Source: Sulfurimonadaceae bacterium
GTDB taxonomy: Bacteria > Campylobacterota > Campylobacteria > Campylobacterales > Sulfurimonadaceae
Assembly: GCA_028683835.1 (NCBI GenBank)
Contig: JAQUHB010000023.1
Location: forward strand, 1-41,280
Length of the DNA stretch: 41,280 nt
Direction of reading: 5' to 3'
Part shown: positions 7,245 through 17,550 of the stretch, one piece after another
How the letters are laid out: each line of letters opens with the position of its first letter
How positions within the stretch are numbered: position 1 is the stretch's first letter
The notes under the pieces: generated by a model
Told to the model about the DNA's origin: nothing
The model's database searches: none
What the model saw: the letters and a program-made list of their open reading frames with translations, nothing else
Made by a program: the position numbers and the translations under genes

Positions 7245-7805
7245 CTAAAACCAATAACGGGGATAATGTCTTTTAGTATTACTTGATAGGTTATTAATAA
7301 GCAATGCGATGGTAAACATCACAAAAGAATCTAACAAAATTGGAAAAAATGCGAACAGATAACCAAGTGCATGCGTTTGAGCACCTCCTACTATAGCCAC
7401 CAATGCAGTCGCTCCTCCGGGTGGATGAAGTGAGCGCGTAAAATGCATAACGACAATCGCCGATGAAACTGCAATCGCACTCAATATTTCTATATCTACA
7501 TGCAAAAATTTATAAAGGGTGATCCCTACTAACGCGGAGAGGACATGCCCTCCTAAAAAATTTCGAGGTTGGGAAAAATCTGCTTGAGGTGCTGCAAATA
7601 TCAAAACAGCCGAAGCTCCAAATGAGCCAACCAAAAAGAGAGTATCTTTGGGATCAATATGGATCTTTTCATTTAAGATTGAAATCACATAAATAGCGAC
7701 TAATGAACCAATCCATGACCAAAGAATTTTAGAAAGCGGTTTTCTTGGAGGACAGCCTTCGAACCCCTTCATTCTTCTTGTATATATTCTTACTTGATGT
7801 CGCAT
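7245..7805 (-). CDS. HPP-family integral membrane protein
   Basis: A 186-residue membrane protein with about four or five helices and the family-defining His-Pro-Pro motif in LHPPGGATALVAIVGG. Plant chloroplast and cyanobacterial HPP proteins have been implicated in nitrite transport, so a nitrite or related anion role is plausible next to a denitrification cluster. That is inference from family and context. It lies 42 bases downstream of the NsrR-like gene on the same strand and may be co-transcribed with it. No DNA- or nucleotide-binding domain such as CBS is attached, unlike many bacterial HPP fusions. Confidence 0.85.
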   Translation of the reverse strand: MRHQVRIYTRRMKGFEGCPPRKPLSKILWSWIGSLVAIYVISILNEKIHIDPKDTLFLVGSFGASAVLIFAAPQADFSQPRNFLGGHVLSALVGITLYKFLHVDIEILSAIAVSSAIVVMHFTRSLHPPGGATALVAIVGGAQTHALGYLFAFFPILLDSFVMFTIALLINNLSSNTKRHYPRYWF

Positions 7806-7847: not shown

Positions 7848-8261
7848 TTATAATTTACAATCTTTACATGTAAGATTATTTAAAGTAGTTTCTTCAAACA
7901 TTTTACGCATCAAACTCTTTGGTTCCATCCATTGATCATGCAACGCACATTTGTTCACACTGTCGCAAATACCTATACCTAAAACACAGCTCTCATTATC
8001 TGTTTCATCATTAAAGGTATTTAAAATATCTATAAGTTTAATCTCTGATGCGGGTGTATTTAACTCATATCCACCTTCTCGACCCTGAATCGATGAAATA
8101 AATCCTGTTTTTACAAGTATCCCCATAATCTTAGTTAAAAATTTATACGGAATGTTTAATATCTCAGAGAGTTCTTTTGCACTATATAAACGGTCATCAC
8201 TATGATTAGCAATGAAATTTAAAACTCTGATTGCATATTGCGATGTATTATGTAGTTGCAT
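7848..8261 (-). CDS. Rrf2-family regulator, NsrR/IscR-like
   Basis: A 137-residue winged-helix regulator. The N-terminal half (MQLHNTSQYAIRVLNF, then YSAKELSEILNIPYKFLTKI and SIQGREGGYEL) is classic Rrf2. Three cysteines at 92, 99 and 105 (C-x6-C-x5-C) match the positions of Fe-S ligands in IscR and NsrR, so it probably binds an Fe-S cluster that can sense NO. Two more cysteines sit at the C-terminus. The ATG at 8261 has an AGGGG ribosome site about 7 bases upstream and begins at the usual family N-terminus; a TTG start at 8282 is less likely. It is divergent from norC across a large palindrome, so NO-dependent control of the nor operon is the natural reading. Confidence 0.82.
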   Translation of the reverse strand: MQLHNTSQYAIRVLNFIANHSDDRLYSAKELSEILNIPYKFLTKIMGILVKTGFISSIQGREGGYELNTPASEIKLIDILNTFNDETDNESCVLGIGICDSVNKCALHDQWMEPKSLMRKMFEETTLNNLTCKDCKL

Positions 8262-8304
8262 AAAAAACCCCTTTTTTGACAAAATTATACAACCATTCTT
8301 TAAA

Positions 8305-8347
8305 AATAAATATTAATTCTACCATTTAGTAGTATTTAATATTTATT
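8305..8347. promoter_or_regulatory. Large palindrome between nsrR-like gene and norC
   Basis: AATAAATATTAA (8305-8316) and TTAATATTTATT (8336-8347) are perfect 12-base inverted arms. Inside them CTAC (8319-8322) and GTAG (8329-8332) form a second symmetric pair. A further inverted pair, TTCTACC (8317-8323) and GGTAGAA (8374-8380), connects the centre with the region just before norC. It is the obvious operator candidate for the divergent Rrf2 regulator. It does not carry the TTGAT/TTGAC half sites found at other promoters in this window. Confidence 0.6.
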
Positions 8348-8398
8348 AGCTAGAATTTCAATTACTACTCAAAGGTAGAATTTAAAACAGGAGTTAAA

Positions 8399-8845
8399 AT
8401 GTCTGAGCGTATTACCAAAGATATGGCTAGGAATATCTACTTTGGTGGAGGTATTTTTGCTATTTTGATATTCGTAGGATTGGCATTTGACAGTGTTCAT
8501 CAAATACCGAAATTGAGCCATACAGAGAATATTACAAAATCTGTAGTGGCAGGAAAAAAGATATGGGAAAATAATGATTGTGTCGGCTGTCATACTCTCC
8601 TTGGAGAAGGCGCTTATTATGCTCCAGAACTAGGGAACGTATTTCAGAGACTAGGAAGCAGTGATGAAACAACATTTAAAGCTTATATGCAAGGGTGGAT
8701 GGCAGCTCAGCCATTAAATATTCCCGATAGAAGAAAAATGCCGCAGTTTCACCTAACACCAGAGCAAGTAAATGATCTTGCAGATTTTTTAATTTGGACA
8801 TCGAAGGTTAACACCCAACAATGGCCGCCAAATATTCAAGGATAA
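8399..8845 (+). CDS. norC: Nitric oxide reductase cytochrome c subunit NorC
   Basis: A 148-residue membrane-anchored c-type cytochrome that passes electrons from periplasmic donors to NorB for reduction of NO to N2O. One N-terminal helix (about 13-31) anchors it. The heme motif CVGCH is at 61-65, followed by the family sequence TLLGEGAYYAPELG. Met114 in RRKMPQFHLT is the likely distal ligand. The length matches cNOR NorC. A strong ribosome site (ACAGGAG) precedes the ATG. It is the first gene of the nor operon and norB follows after 9 bases. Confidence 0.96.
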   Translation: MSERITKDMARNIYFGGGIFAILIFVGLAFDSVHQIPKLSHTENITKSVVAGKKIWENNDCVGCHTLLGEGAYYAPELGNVFQRLGSSDETTFKAYMQGWMAAQPLNIPDRRKMPQFHLTPEQVNDLADFLIWTSKVNTQQWPPNIQG

Positions 8846-10237
<1,392 letters not shown>

Positions 10238-10238
10238 C

Positions 10239-12008
10239 ATGGATCAAAAAGTCGGTCAATTTTGGGACAGATATGTCACAAAAAAAGCATCTCGTTTTTA
10301 TGAGAAAAGTCAAATCTCTTTTGAAGATAAAGCCAAATCTTTAAAAATATTTTATCACCTCTTAGGCGGTGATAAAGCTAAAGAGTTGCATATTACCGAT
10401 AAAAGATTCCTCAAAACTTCAAGAACTTTACTTGAAAAATTTTCAGGAAAAGGAAAGAGTTTTTTTCTTGCATGGCAAGATGATAAAGCTCTTTATTTTC
10501 CTGCAACGCTCGCCTATTTTGAAGACAAAAAACTCAATGATATGCACTATTATTGGCTTTGTGCGATGCTTTCTCATGTCAACATCAATAGTCATAACAT
10601 CATAAATGAAAATAAAAAAATGGCAAATTTTCTTATCCATAAATATCCAGGATTCCAAGATTTCTATAAAAATGCTGAGGAATTCTTACTGGGCAAATAT
10701 CCTGAATTATCATATATTAATCCTTTAAGTGAAGATTTAATAGATGATAATAGCTATCCAAATCCGCTTTGGATATACCCCTCAGTCTCTAACTATACAA
10801 CACTTCTTGATTTCAATGATGAAGAAGAGATAAGCAGACAAGACGGCAAAAAGGATAAAACCGAAGAATTAAAGATGAAGAAAAAAGCTGAGCAAATCGA
10901 TGATGATAAGGAGACGGATGGTCTTTTACTCTTTCTGCCAGAATCTCTCATGAGTCTCATGGAACAGGTCAATGTAGACAGGCAGGAAAATGACAGTTTT
11001 GATGAAGATGCACTCTATAATGCTGAGGATCTAGACGAGATAACACTGGGAAAAAAAGATGCAAATCTGGCTTCTAGAATCAAAATGGATTTGGATATCT
11101 CTGCAAATAGTGCAGAGGATTATCCCCTTGGCAAAGGGTATTTTAGAGATGAATGGGACTATAAAAAAGAGAGTTATTTAAAAAACTATGTCTGTATAAA
11201 ACCGTATATATCTTTACATGTAGAGCCTTTACCTTTACCAAAACGACTTGAAAAGATGATGAAACAGATTCAAGCCGAATTGGATTTGATGGAGCTTGAT
11301 CGTATAAAGATAGATAATTTGCCTTATGGAGATGAGATAAACCTTGATTCTTGGATAGATTATAAAGGGCATCAAAACCACTCAAACCATCCGCAAAGAT
11401 TTTTTCAAAGTTACAAGAAAAAGACAAGAGATATGGCAACGCTTATCTTAGCTGATATCTCCCTCTCAACAGAATCGGGAATAACACAAGATATACGAGT
11501 CATAGACATGATAAAAGATTCACTGATGGTTTTTTCAGAATCGCTTCAAAAGCTACAAGATAGTTTTGGAATTTATGCCTTTTCATCCATCAGAAATAAA
11601 AAAGTCAATTTTCACATCATCAAAAACTTTAAAGAAAAGTACAGCGATCTAGTTCGTGGACGTATTGACGCCATTAAACCAGGTTACTACACCCGCTTGG
11701 GCGCGGCTATAAGAGAAAGTGCGAAGATTTTACAAAAGCAGCAAAGTGCCAATAAACTGCTTTTAATTCTCAGTGACGGCAAACCAAATGATGTTGACAG
11801 ATATGATGGAAGATATGGGATCGAAGATACAAAAAAAGCGATAGAAGAGGTAAAACAAAAGGGGATCATCCCTTTTTGTATCACCATCGATATAGAAGCA
11901 AAAGAGTATTTGCCCTATCTTTTTGGCAAAAACTCTTTTGCGGTTATCCGTGATGCAAAGAAACTGCCAAAAGTTGTTACAGAAATTTATATGAACTTAA
12001 CCAAATAA
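10239..12008 (+). CDS. norD: NorD-like von Willebrand factor A protein
   Basis: A 589-residue cytoplasmic protein required in other denitrifiers for assembly or activation of NO reductase, acting with the AAA+ ATPase NorQ. The C-terminal third is a vWA domain with a MIDAS motif, ADISLSTES (Asp406, Ser408, Ser410), and the later Asp in LLILSDGKPND. The central part is very acidic and low in complexity (about 195-300), typical of NorD/CbbO proteins. Only one base separates it from norB, and the ATG overlaps no other signal. Here norD precedes norQ, whereas many proteobacteria have norQ before norD. Confidence 0.92.
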   Translation: MDQKVGQFWDRYVTKKASRFYEKSQISFEDKAKSLKIFYHLLGGDKAKELHITDKRFLKTSRTLLEKFSGKGKSFFLAWQDDKALYFPATLAYFEDKKLNDMHYYWLCAMLSHVNINSHNIINENKKMANFLIHKYPGFQDFYKNAEEFLLGKYPELSYINPLSEDLIDDNSYPNPLWIYPSVSNYTTLLDFNDEEEISRQDGKKDKTEELKMKKKAEQIDDDKETDGLLLFLPESLMSLMEQVNVDRQENDSFDEDALYNAEDLDEITLGKKDANLASRIKMDLDISANSAEDYPLGKGYFRDEWDYKKESYLKNYVCIKPYISLHVEPLPLPKRLEKMMKQIQAELDLMELDRIKIDNLPYGDEINLDSWIDYKGHQNHSNHPQRFFQSYKKKTRDMATLILADISLSTESGITQDIRVIDMIKDSLMVFSESLQKLQDSFGIYAFSSIRNKKVNFHIIKNFKEKYSDLVRGRIDAIKPGYYTRLGAAIRESAKILQKQQSANKLLLILSDGKPNDVDRYDGRYGIEDTKKAIEEVKQKGIIPFCITIDIEAKEYLPYLFGKNSFAVIRDAKKLPKVVTEIYMNLTK

Positions 12009-12017
12009 AGGAAAAAC

Positions 12018-12800
12018 ATGTCAAGAACTTATTATTTACCACAATCAAATGAAGTTGAACTTTTTGAAGCTGCAGCCGGTATGAACTTACCTGTTCTTAT
12101 AAAAGGGCCTACGGGATGCGGAAAGACAAGGTTTATAGAAGCTATGGGCGAAAAATTAGGGCGCGATGTTTACACCGTAGTTTGCCACGATGACTTAAGC
12201 GCCGCTGATTTGATCGGCCGACATCTGATAGATGAAAATGGTACATTTTGGCAAGACGGACCACTGACAAAAGCAGTCAGAAACGGCGGAATCTGCTATC
12301 TTGATGAGATTATAGAAGCTAGAAAAGATACAACAGTTGTTCTTCATTCACTCGCAGACTATAGACGGGTTTTGCCAATAGATAGAACTGGCGAAGTTAT
12401 AGAAGCACATCCTGATTTTATGCTCGTCGTTTCTTATAATCCCGGATATCAAAACGTTCTCAAAGGGATGAAACCAAGTACAAAGCAGAGATTTTTATCT
12501 CTTAGTTTTACCTATCCTAAACCTGATATCGAAAAAGCTGTTATCATCAAAGAAAGCGGTGTAAGCGAGGAAATAGCACAAAAACTTGTCAATATCGCAG
12601 GAGAGATTCGCAGACTCAGTGACAGTGACATACAAGAAGCGGTATCAACACGACTTTTGATCTATGCAGCAAAACTGATGGCCAAAGGTTTTAACCCGCA
12701 TCAGGCGTGTATGCACTCCATTGTGGAGTCACTCAGTGATGAGGAAGATGTTTTGGAAGTTTTACAAAAACTTATTTCCTTGCATTTTAGTGCATCATGA
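12018..12800 (+). CDS. norQ: NorQ/CbbQ-type AAA+ ATPase
   Basis: A 260-residue MoxR-group AAA+ ATPase that works with NorD to mature NO reductase. The Walker A motif is GPTGCGKT (30-37) and the Walker B is ICYLDEI (Asp96, Glu97). A sensor region (MLVVSYNPGYQ) and the C-terminal CbbQ domain follow, at the family's usual length. AAAGGA lies upstream of the ATG. The stop overlaps the next start by 4 bases (ATGA at 12797-12800), linking it to norE. It is named norQ rather than cbbQ because it sits between norD and norE. Confidence 0.94.
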   Translation: MSRTYYLPQSNEVELFEAAAGMNLPVLIKGPTGCGKTRFIEAMGEKLGRDVYTVVCHDDLSAADLIGRHLIDENGTFWQDGPLTKAVRNGGICYLDEIIEARKDTTVVLHSLADYRRVLPIDRTGEVIEAHPDFMLVVSYNPGYQNVLKGMKPSTKQRFLSLSFTYPKPDIEKAVIIKESGVSEEIAQKLVNIAGEIRRLSDSDIQEAVSTRLLIYAAKLMAKGFNPHQACMHSIVESLSDEEDVLEVLQKLISLHFSAS

Positions 12801-13396
12801 ACAAAACGAGCAGTATCAAAGAACTTTACCCTCCAGGTGATTTTACTATTTGGATAGTCATCTATGTGGAGTTGATCACTTTTGGTTTGATGTTTGTGGG
12901 CTATGCATTTTCAAGAAGAGCAGATATCGCACTTTTTAACAATTCTCAGTTACTACTCAACCAAACAGCAGGATTCATCGATACTTTGATCCTTATCACA
13001 AGCAGTTATTTTATAGTTAAGGCCGTAAATTCTGTCAAAAATGCAAGAGGTGAAATGATTCAGTCTGCTAACATTCTTGCGTCAAAATGGCTTTTAGCTG
13101 CCATACTTTTTGGAGTTATATTTTTAGTCAATAAACTTTTAGAATTTTCAGCCATATTTTCTCAAGGTATCGGTTTAAGTACAAATACTTTTTTTATGTT
13201 TTATCTGCTTTTAACGATGTTTCATTTCATGCATGTTGCTTTAGGTACGGTTGTATTATTGAATATTCGCCAAAGAACAAAGAGAGATGGTTATAGTGCT
13301 GATGATAGCAGAGGGATAGAAACTGGCGGTGTGTACTGGCATTTAGTAGATCTTCTTTGGATCGTACTCTTTGTCCTTGTTTATATCATAAGGTAA
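12797..13396 (+). CDS. norE: NorE-like cytochrome c oxidase subunit III family protein
   Basis: A 199-residue integral membrane protein with about five helices, related to cytochrome c oxidase subunit III. Family motifs include PPGDFTIWIVIYVELITFG near the N-terminus, FMFYLLLTMFHFMHVALG in the middle, and TGGVYWHLVDLLWIVLFVLV near the C-terminus. NorE is not part of purified cNOR but is needed for full NO reductase activity in some denitrifiers. It is translationally coupled to norQ and followed after 4 bases by norF. Confidence 0.88.
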   Translation: MNKTSSIKELYPPGDFTIWIVIYVELITFGLMFVGYAFSRRADIALFNNSQLLLNQTAGFIDTLILITSSYFIVKAVNSVKNARGEMIQSANILASKWLLAAILFGVIFLVNKLLEFSAIFSQGIGLSTNTFFMFYLLLTMFHFMHVALGTVVLLNIRQRTKRDGYSADDSRGIETGGVYWHLVDLLWIVLFVLVYIIR

Positions 13397-13400
13397 CAAT

Positions 13401-13664
13401 ATGAAAAAATCACTTGAAGGCGTTTGGGCAGTTTTAATCATTTTTACAATTTTTGCTTATCTGCTCGGAGAATTAAAATTAGTAAATACCTTATTGGTCG
13501 ATATTCTACTCATAACCACATTTATCAAAGGGCAACTTGTGATCGATTATTTTATGGGTTTAAAAAATGTTCAACTAAGATACAGTATCATACCTACACT
13601 TTGGCTGAGTATTGTTATTTTTTCTATTGCTCTAGCCTATTATTTACCTATAACAATTAAGTAA
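13401..13664 (+). CDS. norF: NorF-like small membrane protein
   Basis: An 87-residue protein with three predicted membrane helices (about 8-24, 30-48, 62-80), similar in size and plan to NorF and to the prokaryotic cytochrome c oxidase subunit IV family. NorF proteins accompany NorE and are thought to help NO reductase maturation or activity. The sequence is too short and hydrophobic for firm assignment by motif; position after norE is the main support. The next gene begins 11 bases downstream, after a TAAACGGAG ribosome site. Confidence 0.75.
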   Translation: MKKSLEGVWAVLIIFTIFAYLLGELKLVNTLLVDILLITTFIKGQLVIDYFMGLKNVQLRYSIIPTLWLSIVIFSIALAYYLPITIK

Positions 13665-13675
13665 ACGGAGTAATT

Positions 13676-14581
13676 ATGCAGCAATACAGCACTTTAAAAG
13701 CACATTATAAATTCACGGACGAAGAAGCTCAGATATTAAAAGATCTGCAATCGAGAATGGAAACTCTCTCAGATGAGTTTATAGATGGATTTTATGATTA
13801 TATATGGGGTTTTGGAACAACGGCACAGTTTTTAAAAAATAAAGATATTATCGCTCATCATCGCAAAAAAATAAAAGAGTGGTTTATCAATCTATTTTGC
13901 GGAAACTACGATATGTCTTATTTTATGTATCTTTATAAAATTGGCGAAATACATGTAAAAATCGGCCTGCCAACACACTTCGTAAACTCTGCTTTTACTT
14001 TTGTCAGAACTTTTGTTTTGCAAAATATTGAAGGAAACTTTCACAATAAAGAGCAACACGTCAAAGAGATTCAAGCCGTTGAAAAGATCATCGATATGAA
14101 CCTTGACGTTTTGACAAGCTCTTATAGAGAAGAGGAGTTAAGTAAATTTCTATCTTTATCGAAGTTTGAAAAAACAATTTTACAAGGATTGAAAAAATTT
14201 AACTCTTATGTCAACTTTTTCCTTGCCGGAGCTTTGGCTTTAGTCGCTTTTTTTGCTATCGGCTTATTTAGTTATGATATTTATATACTGTTTACCTCAG
14301 AGATAGACATAGAAAAAGGGATTTTGACCGTTCTTGGAAGTTTATTGGTTTTATGGGCGGCTATCGAGCTGATTCATGAAGAGATCAATCACCTTCAAGG
14401 CAAAGGTTTTGCTATAGGAGCTTTCATTATGCTGGCGTTAGCTGCACTTATAAGAAAAGTTCTTATATATTCCCTATCGTCAGAAAAATCTGAAGAGCTC
14501 TTAATCATCGGTGCCGTTATCGTAGGTTTGTCTATCTCTTATTGGCTCGTAAGCTCAAAAAATAAAAATCCGGAGAAATAA
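13676..14581 (+). CDS. Protoglobin domain fused to a PsiE-like membrane domain
   Basis: A 301-residue protein ending the nor operon. Residues about 10-155 form a protoglobin / globin-coupled-sensor type domain: the segment YKIGEIHVKIGLPTHFVNSA carries the proximal His (His93) in the usual I-x-x-H-x-x-I-G-L setting. Residues about 178-295 hold four membrane helices matching the phosphate-starvation-inducible PsiE family, with an acidic face in AAIELIHEEINH and the conserved Arg-Lys in LAALIRKVLIY. A heme-bound NO or O2 sensor or scavenger tethered to the membrane is a reasonable inference, given that it follows norF by 11 bases. I know of no described function for this fusion. Confidence 0.78.
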   Translation: MQQYSTLKAHYKFTDEEAQILKDLQSRMETLSDEFIDGFYDYIWGFGTTAQFLKNKDIIAHHRKKIKEWFINLFCGNYDMSYFMYLYKIGEIHVKIGLPTHFVNSAFTFVRTFVLQNIEGNFHNKEQHVKEIQAVEKIIDMNLDVLTSSYREEELSKFLSLSKFEKTILQGLKKFNSYVNFFLAGALALVAFFAIGLFSYDIYILFTSEIDIEKGILTVLGSLLVLWAAIELIHEEINHLQGKGFAIGAFIMLALAALIRKVLIYSLSSEKSEELLIIGAVIVGLSISYWLVSSKNKNPEK

Positions 14582-14706: not shown

Positions 14707-17550
14707 ATGCGTTTAACAAATCTTTTTTCTCCTGCGGTGGCTATGATGAGCCGCATGAAATACCCTAAAAAGCTTGCTTTGGCGACAGCGGTATTTTTTC
14801 TCCCTTTTGTACTATTTTTATATTTGGGTTATGAGCATGTTGAAAGTGAGTCCCGTTCCATTCAAAAACTTCAGATAGGATTGGCCTATCAACAAAGCGT
14901 CAGATATTTTTTTGAATATATTCCGCTTGAGCGGGGAATGATGATGGCTGTACAGCAAGGAGATCCCTCTTACAAAGCGAAAATAGAAGAAAACTTTAAA
15001 ATTATCGAAGCAGCAATAAAAAAAATAGATTCCATGCCTGTGCCGACATTCTCGATCGCCACAGAATACAAAGATATCAAAACTCAATACTGGGAGCTCC
15101 AAAACGGACTTTGGAAACGCTCTGCAGACGAGAATTATCGTATGCATACGGCACTGATCGATAACATTTTGTTACTGATGCGCCACATTGGGGATGCTTC
15201 TTATACGATCAATGATTCAGACTTAAGCATATATCATCTCGTTAATATACTCAGCGACCATATTCCTGCTCTTGTTCAGTATACCGGAGAGGGACGAGCA
15301 ATCGGTACGGGAGTGATTTTGAAGCAATCGATGACGTTTGATGAAAAAAAAGAGGCTACAGTTCTTTATGGAAAAGTTCGTTCTCATTTAGACAGTATCA
15401 TTTATGACGGTACTGTCGCCTGCAAGCGCCATCCTGAACTGTGTCGCGTTATAACACCAACTATTTCGGACATAGAGAAGGAAACAGACAAATTTTCAAT
15501 TATTTTTACAACACAAATTCTTAATACGGATCATTGGGCAATCACTTCCAACCATTATTTTCAGAATACGACCAATACCATTGACACCTATTTCAATGCC
15601 TATGATATTTTTTCTGCTACACTTCAATCTCAACTCAAAGAGAAACTTGCCAATTTAGATCGAGAGATACTTGTCGGAGAGATCGTCGGTTTGGTAATAT
15701 TGGCGTCTATTATCTATTTTACAGTTGGATTTTATCTGGCATTTATTGGAGTTCTTGATGAACTGATGGGAGCAGCTCATTTAATCTCTACGGGGGAGTA
15801 TGTAGTTCGTGTTCCCATCACAACCGATGATGAAATGGCCGATATTTCCCACGCATTTAACAACATGACCAAAAAAATCCAGCAGTCATTTTCTTTTTTA
15901 AAAAGCTACAAGAAAGCAGTTGATGCGAGCGATATTCTCTCTATTACGGATATAAACGGCAATATCACCTATGTGAATGATAAGTTTTGTATGGCTACAG
16001 GATATACGCGTGAAGAGCTCATCGGACAAAATCATCGTATCTTTAGAGACAAAGAGACTCCCAAAGAGATTTATCGCCTCATGTGGGAAACCATTCTCAA
16101 TAAAAAAATATGGTCGGGCAGTTTAAAAAACATAAAAAAAGATGGAACCCCTTATTACACTGATTCAACGATTACCCCTATTTTGAACGAAAAAGGGGAG
16201 ATCGTTGAGTTTGTCTCAACAAAACATGATATTACAGAGCTTATCACTCAAAAAGAGCAGCTTATTCATCAACTATACACCGATTCATTAACACAACTTC
16301 CAAACCGAACACAACTTTTAGAAAATCTAGCTTTGATGAAAGAGCCTGTTTTGATCCTTATCAATATAGATCGTTTTGGAGAAATTAATGATTTTTACGG
16401 CGCGGAAATCGGTGATAATATCTTGATTGAGATGCGTGAACGTATCTATTCTAGTCTTATGCCAGAATGCTGTATCTTATACCGTATTTATGCGGATGAG
16501 TTTGCTTTAATGTGTGAACAAAGCTGCATTACAAACCATTCATGCGAGGAGATAGCAACCTCACTGCATGAACAAATCGAAGCACGTCCTTTTTCCGTGA
16601 AAGAAAACTCAGTAATCATCAAAGTGACCATTGGAGCAGTCATAGATCTTATTTTTGCAGCACAAGACAATACGCAGACAACGCATCTTCTAACCGATGC
16701 GGATATGGTATTGCGCCATGCCAAACGACATGACAAAGAGGTTCTTGTTCTTCACGATACCAGTATGCTCAAAAATGAAATCGCACATAATATTGAGTAT
16801 ATTAGTAAAATAAAAGAAGCTATTGCCACAGACCAGATCGTTCCGTTCTTTCAAGGGATTGTAAATAATCAAACTTTCCAAAAAAAGTCTTCCTATCATC
16901 AGAATATAGATAATTCTAGGGAAGTTCCGACCAAATATGAGTGTCTGATCCGCTTAATAGATCATGAGGGCAAAACTGTCTCCCCTTTCTTCTTCTTGGA
17001 TGTCGCAAAAAAAGCAAAACTGTATCCTCAGCTGACACGGATCATGATCGAGAAAACTTTTTCCTTTTTTGAGCAAAATAGTTATGCGTTTTCTATTAAT
17101 CTCTCTGTAGAAGATATCTTAGACAAAAAAACAGTTGAGTTTATACTTGATAAACTCGAACATTCCAGCATTGCAAAACGAGTCATCTTTGAAATTCTGG
17201 AATCCGAAGGAATTGAAAATTATGTAGAAGTACAACAGTTTATTAAAAAAGCCAAGCAGTGGGGAGCACGGATCGCTATTGATGATTTTGGAAGCGGATA
17301 TTCCAATTTTGCCTACATACTCAACCTGCAAGTTGATTTTATAAAAATCGACGCATCTTTGATCAAAAATATAGATAAAGATGAGCACGCTCGTATCATT
17401 GTCGAGACGATTGTTGCCTTTGCTAAAAGACTTAAGATTCAAACCATCGCTGAATTTGTCCATTCAAAAGAGGTTTATGAAATTGTCAAAGAGATCGGAG
17501 TCGATTTTTCACAAGGGTTTTATTTTCATGAGCCGGCACAATATTTATGA
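14707..17550 (+). CDS. Membrane GGDEF/EAL c-di-GMP protein with HAMP and PAS domains
   Basis: A 947-residue signalling protein. Two membrane helices (about 22-41 and 322-347) enclose a large periplasmic helical sensor containing LERGMMM (74-80), reminiscent of the ERG motif of NIT nitrate/nitrite sensors. HAMP follows (about 347-400), then PAS (about 403-515), a degenerate GGDEF domain reading YADEF (595-599), and an EAL domain from about 705. The EAL residues are largely intact: YECLIRL (Glu745), Asn in FSINLS, Glu in FEILESE, IDDFGSGYS, IKID and SQGFYF. It is therefore probably a c-di-GMP phosphodiesterase with a catalytically dead cyclase domain. It is monocistronic and follows the nor operon. 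Confidence 0.9.
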   Translation: MRLTNLFSPAVAMMSRMKYPKKLALATAVFFLPFVLFLYLGYEHVESESRSIQKLQIGLAYQQSVRYFFEYIPLERGMMMAVQQGDPSYKAKIEENFKIIEAAIKKIDSMPVPTFSIATEYKDIKTQYWELQNGLWKRSADENYRMHTALIDNILLLMRHIGDASYTINDSDLSIYHLVNILSDHIPALVQYTGEGRAIGTGVILKQSMTFDEKKEATVLYGKVRSHLDSIIYDGTVACKRHPELCRVITPTISDIEKETDKFSIIFTTQILNTDHWAITSNHYFQNTTNTIDTYFNAYDIFSATLQSQLKEKLANLDREILVGEIVGLVILASIIYFTVGFYLAFIGVLDELMGAAHLISTGEYVVRVPITTDDEMADISHAFNNMTKKIQQSFSFLKSYKKAVDASDILSITDINGNITYVNDKFCMATGYTREELIGQNHRIFRDKETPKEIYRLMWETILNKKIWSGSLKNIKKDGTPYYTDSTITPILNEKGEIVEFVSTKHDITELITQKEQLIHQLYTDSLTQLPNRTQLLENLALMKEPVLILINIDRFGEINDFYGAEIGDNILIEMRERIYSSLMPECCILYRIYADEFALMCEQSCITNHSCEEIATSLHEQIEARPFSVKENSVIIKVTIGAVIDLIFAAQDNTQTTHLLTDADMVLRHAKRHDKEVLVLHDTSMLKNEIAHNIEYISKIKEAIATDQIVPFFQGIVNNQTFQKKSSYHQNIDNSREVPTKYECLIRLIDHEGKTVSPFFFLDVAKKAKLYPQLTRIMIEKTFSFFEQNSYAFSINLSVEDILDKKTVEFILDKLEHSSIAKRVIFEILESEGIENYVEVQQFIKKAKQWGARIAIDDFGSGYSNFAYILNLQVDFIKIDASLIKNIDKDEHARIIVETIVAFAKRLKIQTIAEFVHSKEVYEIVKEIGVDFSQGFYFHEPAQYL

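Follow-up and report, generated by a model that had tools for sequence, protein, structure and literature searches.

From sequence, structure prediction and genome comparison, we conclude that the gene closing the nor operon of a Sulfurimonadaceae bacterium (assembly GCA_028683835.1) encodes a protoglobin fused to a PsiE membrane domain. We interpret this protein, with confidence evenly balanced between acceptance and doubt, as an inner-membrane globin-coupled sensor with PsiE as its output, recruited here into an NO-responsive operon. The gene lies on the forward strand at positions 13676–14581 of the 41,280-nucleotide stretch of contig JAQUHB010000023.1 that was analysed (the window), starts with ATG and encodes 301 amino acids. 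Residues 4–154 (13685–14137) match the Pfam Protoglobin profile PF11563 (1.1e-26; 94.1 bits, cut-off 25), and residues 179–296 (14210–14563) the PsiE profile PF06146 (1.1e-21; 77.7 bits, cut-off 23.9). A first-pass annotation of the window had proposed both halves together with such profile searches, and each half scored well above its curated cut-off. In an AlphaFold model built from 39 aligned relatives (pLDDT 80.7), residues 1–158 adopt a globin fold, followed by four long helices; hydrophobic segments lie at about residues 178–206, 214–234, 245–267 and 274–293. The four-helix architecture of the C-terminal half and its membrane tethering, both anticipated by the annotation, are thus supported by prediction.

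The best sequence match of the globin half is the globin domain of GsGCS from Geobacter sulfurreducens (PDB 2w31, 8e-42). The predicted globin superposes on it with Z 23.8 and an rmsd of 1.4 Å over 151 residues at 44% identity, in agreement with the 3-over-3 fold of sensor-type globins, and the next structural matches are AfGcHK (Z 22.3) and HemAT (Z 21.9). The globin half therefore belongs to the already described globin-coupled-sensor branch of GsGCS. The PsiE half had no counterpart among the PDB matches listed, which were obtained with the full-length model as query and have no bearing on its fold. A role as a sensor is favoured by the closest solved relatives, all of which are heme sensor domains (GsGCS, AfGcHK and HemAT), and by the nearest cousins in the Campylobacterota, the protoglobin-EAL proteins, which are signalling fusions. 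Soluble globin-coupled sensors (HemAT, AfGcHK, DosC, BpeGReg and the protoglobin-EAL proteins of Campylobacterota) share the globin family and fold, but carry chemotaxis, kinase, GGDEF or EAL outputs where the fusion has a membrane module. We use the term sensor by analogy, since neither an output partner nor a catalytic residue was identified for PsiE.

The N-terminal protoglobin would bind heme in the cytoplasm, with His93 (13952–13954) as the proximal F8 ligand. This histidine, already singled out in the first-pass annotation, is invariant in 39 diverse fusions, as is Tyr40 (13793–13795), a B10-type residue of the distal pocket that aligns with Tyr45 of AfGcHK; the combination of a proximal His F8 and a distal Tyr B10 is therefore present. 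His62 (13859–13861) lies one turn before the E11 site, four residues ahead of position 66, where E7 would fall, and is probably a distal heme ligand. It occurs in every row of the 39-member alignment except five of the Desulfuromonadales type (the Geobacter-type clade), which have a histidine at aligned position 66. In GsGCS, the distal ligand is reported to be His66 at E11 (PMC4476040), and the protein is described as bis-histidyl in literature cited in PMC4686822 and PMC4476040. In contrast to that clade, the window protein has Ile66, and hence differs from a GsGCS-type bis-histidyl sensor; His62 is the histidine of the Campylobacterota/Nitrospinota clade. The distal histidine thus appears to be swapped between two positions inside one family.

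We propose that the ligand or redox state of the heme is passed via the last globin helix into the four-helix PsiE module, so that the signal would run from the globin to the membrane. In this module, Glu231 of TM2 (14366–14368) and Arg260 of TM3 (14453–14455) are invariant and, like Phe245, Phe250 and Ala257, common to the fusion and Escherichia coli PsiE (psiE, b4030; PF06146). These retained TM2–TM3 residues and the four predicted transmembrane helices place the C-terminal half in the PsiE family, although E. coli PsiE is free-standing, has no globin and shows only 27% identity. Among Campylobacterota, the mean pairwise identity is 0.83 in the membrane half versus 0.73 in the globin half, and reaches 0.94 in the TM2-loop-TM3 region, which argues that the membrane half is not a mere anchor. 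Over the whole family the PsiE half contains no invariant His or Cys, which speaks against heme, an iron-sulfur cluster or a comparable centre in this half. As no catalytic or cofactor motif was seen in the module, it probably signals within the membrane by a change of conformation or by contact with another protein.

These properties also bear on the main rival to the sensor reading, a membrane-tethered NO scavenger, in which NO would be bound by the globin, or oxidised by it where traces of O2 are present, at the membrane in which NorCB operates, with PsiE providing the localisation. Such a protein would profit from the likely co-transcription with nor in the window, and its chemistry finds a precedent in a globin-coupled sensor of Azotobacter that was reported to react rapidly with NO (PMC3820574). 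The occurrence of single-domain globins, truncated globins and flavodiiron proteins beside the fusion in other genomes points the same way. However, the fusion has no reductase domain and its PsiE half no cofactor-type residues to re-reduce the heme, conservation is stronger in the membrane half than in the globin, which does not suit a simple anchor, and most genomes with the fusion are without cNor, so that we consider scavenging unlikely, if still a serious contender. The Campylobacter globins Cgb and Ctb come from the same phylum and are linked to nitrosative stress (literature cited in PMC1457004), but belong to other globin families and, unlike the fusion, are soluble, single-domain and NssR-controlled.

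Full-length fusions were found in 20 genomes besides that of the window, at 69–88% identity, among 397 Campylobacterota genomes. A scan of named genomes yielded 72 loci, nearly all of them encoding fusions of about 300 amino acids, in Sulfurimonas, Sulfurovum, Sulfuricurvum, Arcobacter relatives, Desulfuromonadales, Nitrospinaceae, Nitrospirota and Gammaproteobacteria; members from Pelotalea and Nitrospinaceae also clear both Pfam cut-offs. Searches of plasmids with tblastn returned distant globin domains alone. In one Geobacter-related family, a relative of the GsGCS globin is present in 56 of 76 genomes, and the same PsiE domain follows it in all 12 loci that were checked. Given this spread over several bacterial groups, protoglobin-PsiE fusions form an old and dispersed family, and GsGCS is probably one of its members, with a PsiE half like that of its relatives; a search by identity to 2w31 did not find the full-length G. 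sulfurreducens protein among the genomes covered. The Geobacter-type loci examined differ from the window in that no linkage to nor was seen.

The prevalence of PsiE-fused proteins in the Geobacter-related family, the reported bis-histidyl state of GsGCS and the anaerobic members of the family also fit an O2 or redox sensor that is not tied to NO in particular. Redox state would then be reported to the membrane by a bis-His or His/Tyr heme switch, and nor operons would carry the gene only because they are linked to anoxia. An FNR-like palindrome near −60 in 7 of 58 fusion genes, against 1.9 expected, agrees with this. As an account of the whole it seems improbable to us, as it leaves the repeated arrival of the fusion at nor loci unexplained; as for the signal itself, the data are explained equally well by O2 or redox sensing and by NO sensing.

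In the window, norC-norB-norD-norQ-norE-norF occupy positions 8399–13664 of the forward strand, recognised by domain content and order (Pfam Cytochrom_C, COX1, VWA, AAA_5/CbbQ_C, COX3 and COX4_pro). The norF stop (13664) and the start of the fusion gene are 11 bp apart; the fusion gene has the same direction and is the last gene of the run, exactly as first annotated. The gap between the two showed nothing resembling a promoter, so the fusion is most simply taken to be co-expressed with nor. The next gene on the forward strand begins 125 bp downstream and is of the PAS-GGDEF-EAL type (14707–17550). We considered it as a stable partner of the fusion and rejected it, since it is present in a near-identical genome (L071) and absent from the Sulfurimonas locus L076.

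Upstream of norC, and divergent from it, a Rrf2-family regulator is encoded on the reverse strand (7848–8282; PF02082, 4.8e-28; above the rrf2_super cut-off). Its 50 bits fall well below the 182 required by the NCBIfam NsrR equivalog model; we call it NsrR-like by position and operator only, because only the Rrf2 superfamily model passes. A 23-bp palindrome resembling an operator, AATTACTAC-N4-AGGTAGAATT, is present twice in the region that separates this gene from norC, at 8315–8337 (reverse strand) and 8360–8382 (forward strand, an exact match). The window has no further copy (0.07 expected). About 15 nor operons of the phylum have this palindrome ahead of norC, usually as a pair. Two other matches in the genome are weaker; one of them, on contig C72 inside a CorA-like gene, was taken as chance. 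The tandem palindrome clearly qualifies as a candidate operator of the Rrf2 protein, which, we infer, reads NO and binds this site. The nor-linked fusion would accordingly be produced along with NO reductase, under the control of the NsrR-like Rrf2 protein, and would probably respond to NO or to an anoxic, NO-producing state. Before free-standing fusion genes, the nor operator was not convincingly found (a degenerate half-site was seen in L061), and no NssR-type sites were present upstream of them.

Linkage to nor is recurrent, but confined to few genomes. None of the first 20 relatives of the fusion adjoins nor, and the survey of nor operons that had been suggested gave a divided answer: the same gene stands at nor loci in only five genomes (those of the window, L071, L076, L120 and L061), whereas none is linked in 15 other nor operons examined. 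L071 is the near-identical genome, and L076 (Sulfurimonas) has the order HPP-Rrf2-norCBDQEF-fusion of the window. In the two Sulfuricurvum genomes, the fusion follows norF (L120) or heads into an Rrf2 gene of the opposite strand, with a single-domain globin gene alongside (L061); these are the only two genomes of their genus (g5) with a fusion, and both have it at nor. In a low-coverage assembly, the L120 gene (L120:7986-8890) is broken into two reading frames, through sequencing error or decay. The nor-linked copies fall in at least three places on the tree, on which L120 was not placed, and in at least three arrangements, and repeated arrival of the fusion at nor is unlikely to be chance. 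At a further locus, L072, the HPP gene and the fusion are kept and the remaining nor genes are absent, apart from a norF relic of 42 residues between the two (L072:7791-7916; 60% identity, no start); here a nor operon was deleted and the fusion retained.

Within the family of the window, the fusion is present in 49 of 228 genomes, cNorB in 53 and both in 14, where 11.4 would be expected (p 0.34); the genomes counted include incomplete ones. A co-occurrence at the level of the phylum (6 versus 0.76 expected, p 3e-5) vanished within the family and was therefore treated as shared ancestry. In four genomes (G319, G252, G129 and G307), cNor and the fusion lie at separate places, so that both arrangements exist in one family. 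The absence of co-occurrence with cNor in the family, and the fact that most copies stand alone and lack an NO-type operator, count against our sensor reading. We conclude that the link between fusion and nor is real, but local and optional, and that the fusion, which nearly always lies away from nor, is not a nor accessory by descent.

This distribution also speaks against a protein that delivers NO to NorCB or assists Nor assembly, which the position after norF might suggest and of which delivery had been raised in the first-pass annotation. The fusion is carried without cNorB in 35 of 49 relatives, 39 of 53 cNorB genomes do without it, the 15 other nor operons have no linked copy, and L072 kept it after losing nor; moreover, NO diffuses freely in membranes. 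Delivery as a general role is contradicted by these counts and by L072, and we regard delivery or assembly as very improbable.

In other genomes, the genes one or two places from the fusion include, besides HPP genes in several arrangements, those for single-domain globins (L061, L078 and L090), truncated globins (L112, and L101 by sequence reading only, without a Pfam match), flavodiiron proteins (L075 and L094) and NosL (L085). Farther out, at three to six places, these families are seldom met, the nor operon itself excepted. Together with the nor loci, these neighbours count in favour of the sensor reading. Since these families were chosen after looking at the neighbours, their enrichment is suggestive only; the neighbours support a nitrogen-oxide context without proving one. 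The HPP gene of the window (7245–7805, reverse strand; PF04982, 4.8e-54), which encodes a membrane protein, is an example of a type that recurs beside the fusion elsewhere; a protein of the HPP family was reported to transport nitrite in cyanobacteria and chloroplasts (Maeda et al. 2014, cited in PMC4137279).

In the open-access literature, we found no paper in which protoglobin and PsiE are named as a pair. The globin type is known, and so is the idea of a globin-coupled sensor that has a membrane part (GsGCS). Not described, as far as could be checked, are how widely the fusion is spread, its two designs of distal histidine, the conservation of its PsiE half and its recruitment into nor operons. 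To our knowledge, PsiE has no known biochemical role. Tentatively, and with more doubt than conviction, we put forward the broader proposal that PsiE is a membrane signal-output module, that protoglobin-PsiE proteins are a gas or redox branch of the globin-coupled sensors and that those in nor operons sense NO. If true, this branch would exert its effect within the membrane, instead of signalling by way of kinases or cyclic di-GMP, the copies in nor operons would adjust respiration directly, and PsiE would gain its first biochemical role. The earlier suggestion that the fusion could give PsiE a role therefore remains fair: a heme sensor domain of known type on PsiE, retained in Campylobacterota, Geobacter relatives and Nitrospinota alike, is a direct handle on PsiE function. 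For the nor-linked copies, NO is plausible as the signal and the promoter is a regulated one, and the distal histidine at two positions in one family provides a ready-made comparison of heme-pocket designs.

Two further kinds of protoglobin were observed in these genomes. Proteins of about 400 amino acids with a protoglobin-EAL architecture, from six Campylobacterota loci (L025–L027, L029, L031 and L032), are the closest cousins of the globin half, at about 40–48% identity. The genome of the window itself encodes a second, weaker protoglobin domain (L002; G000:C65:13053-13409), which lies inside a 777-codon open frame.
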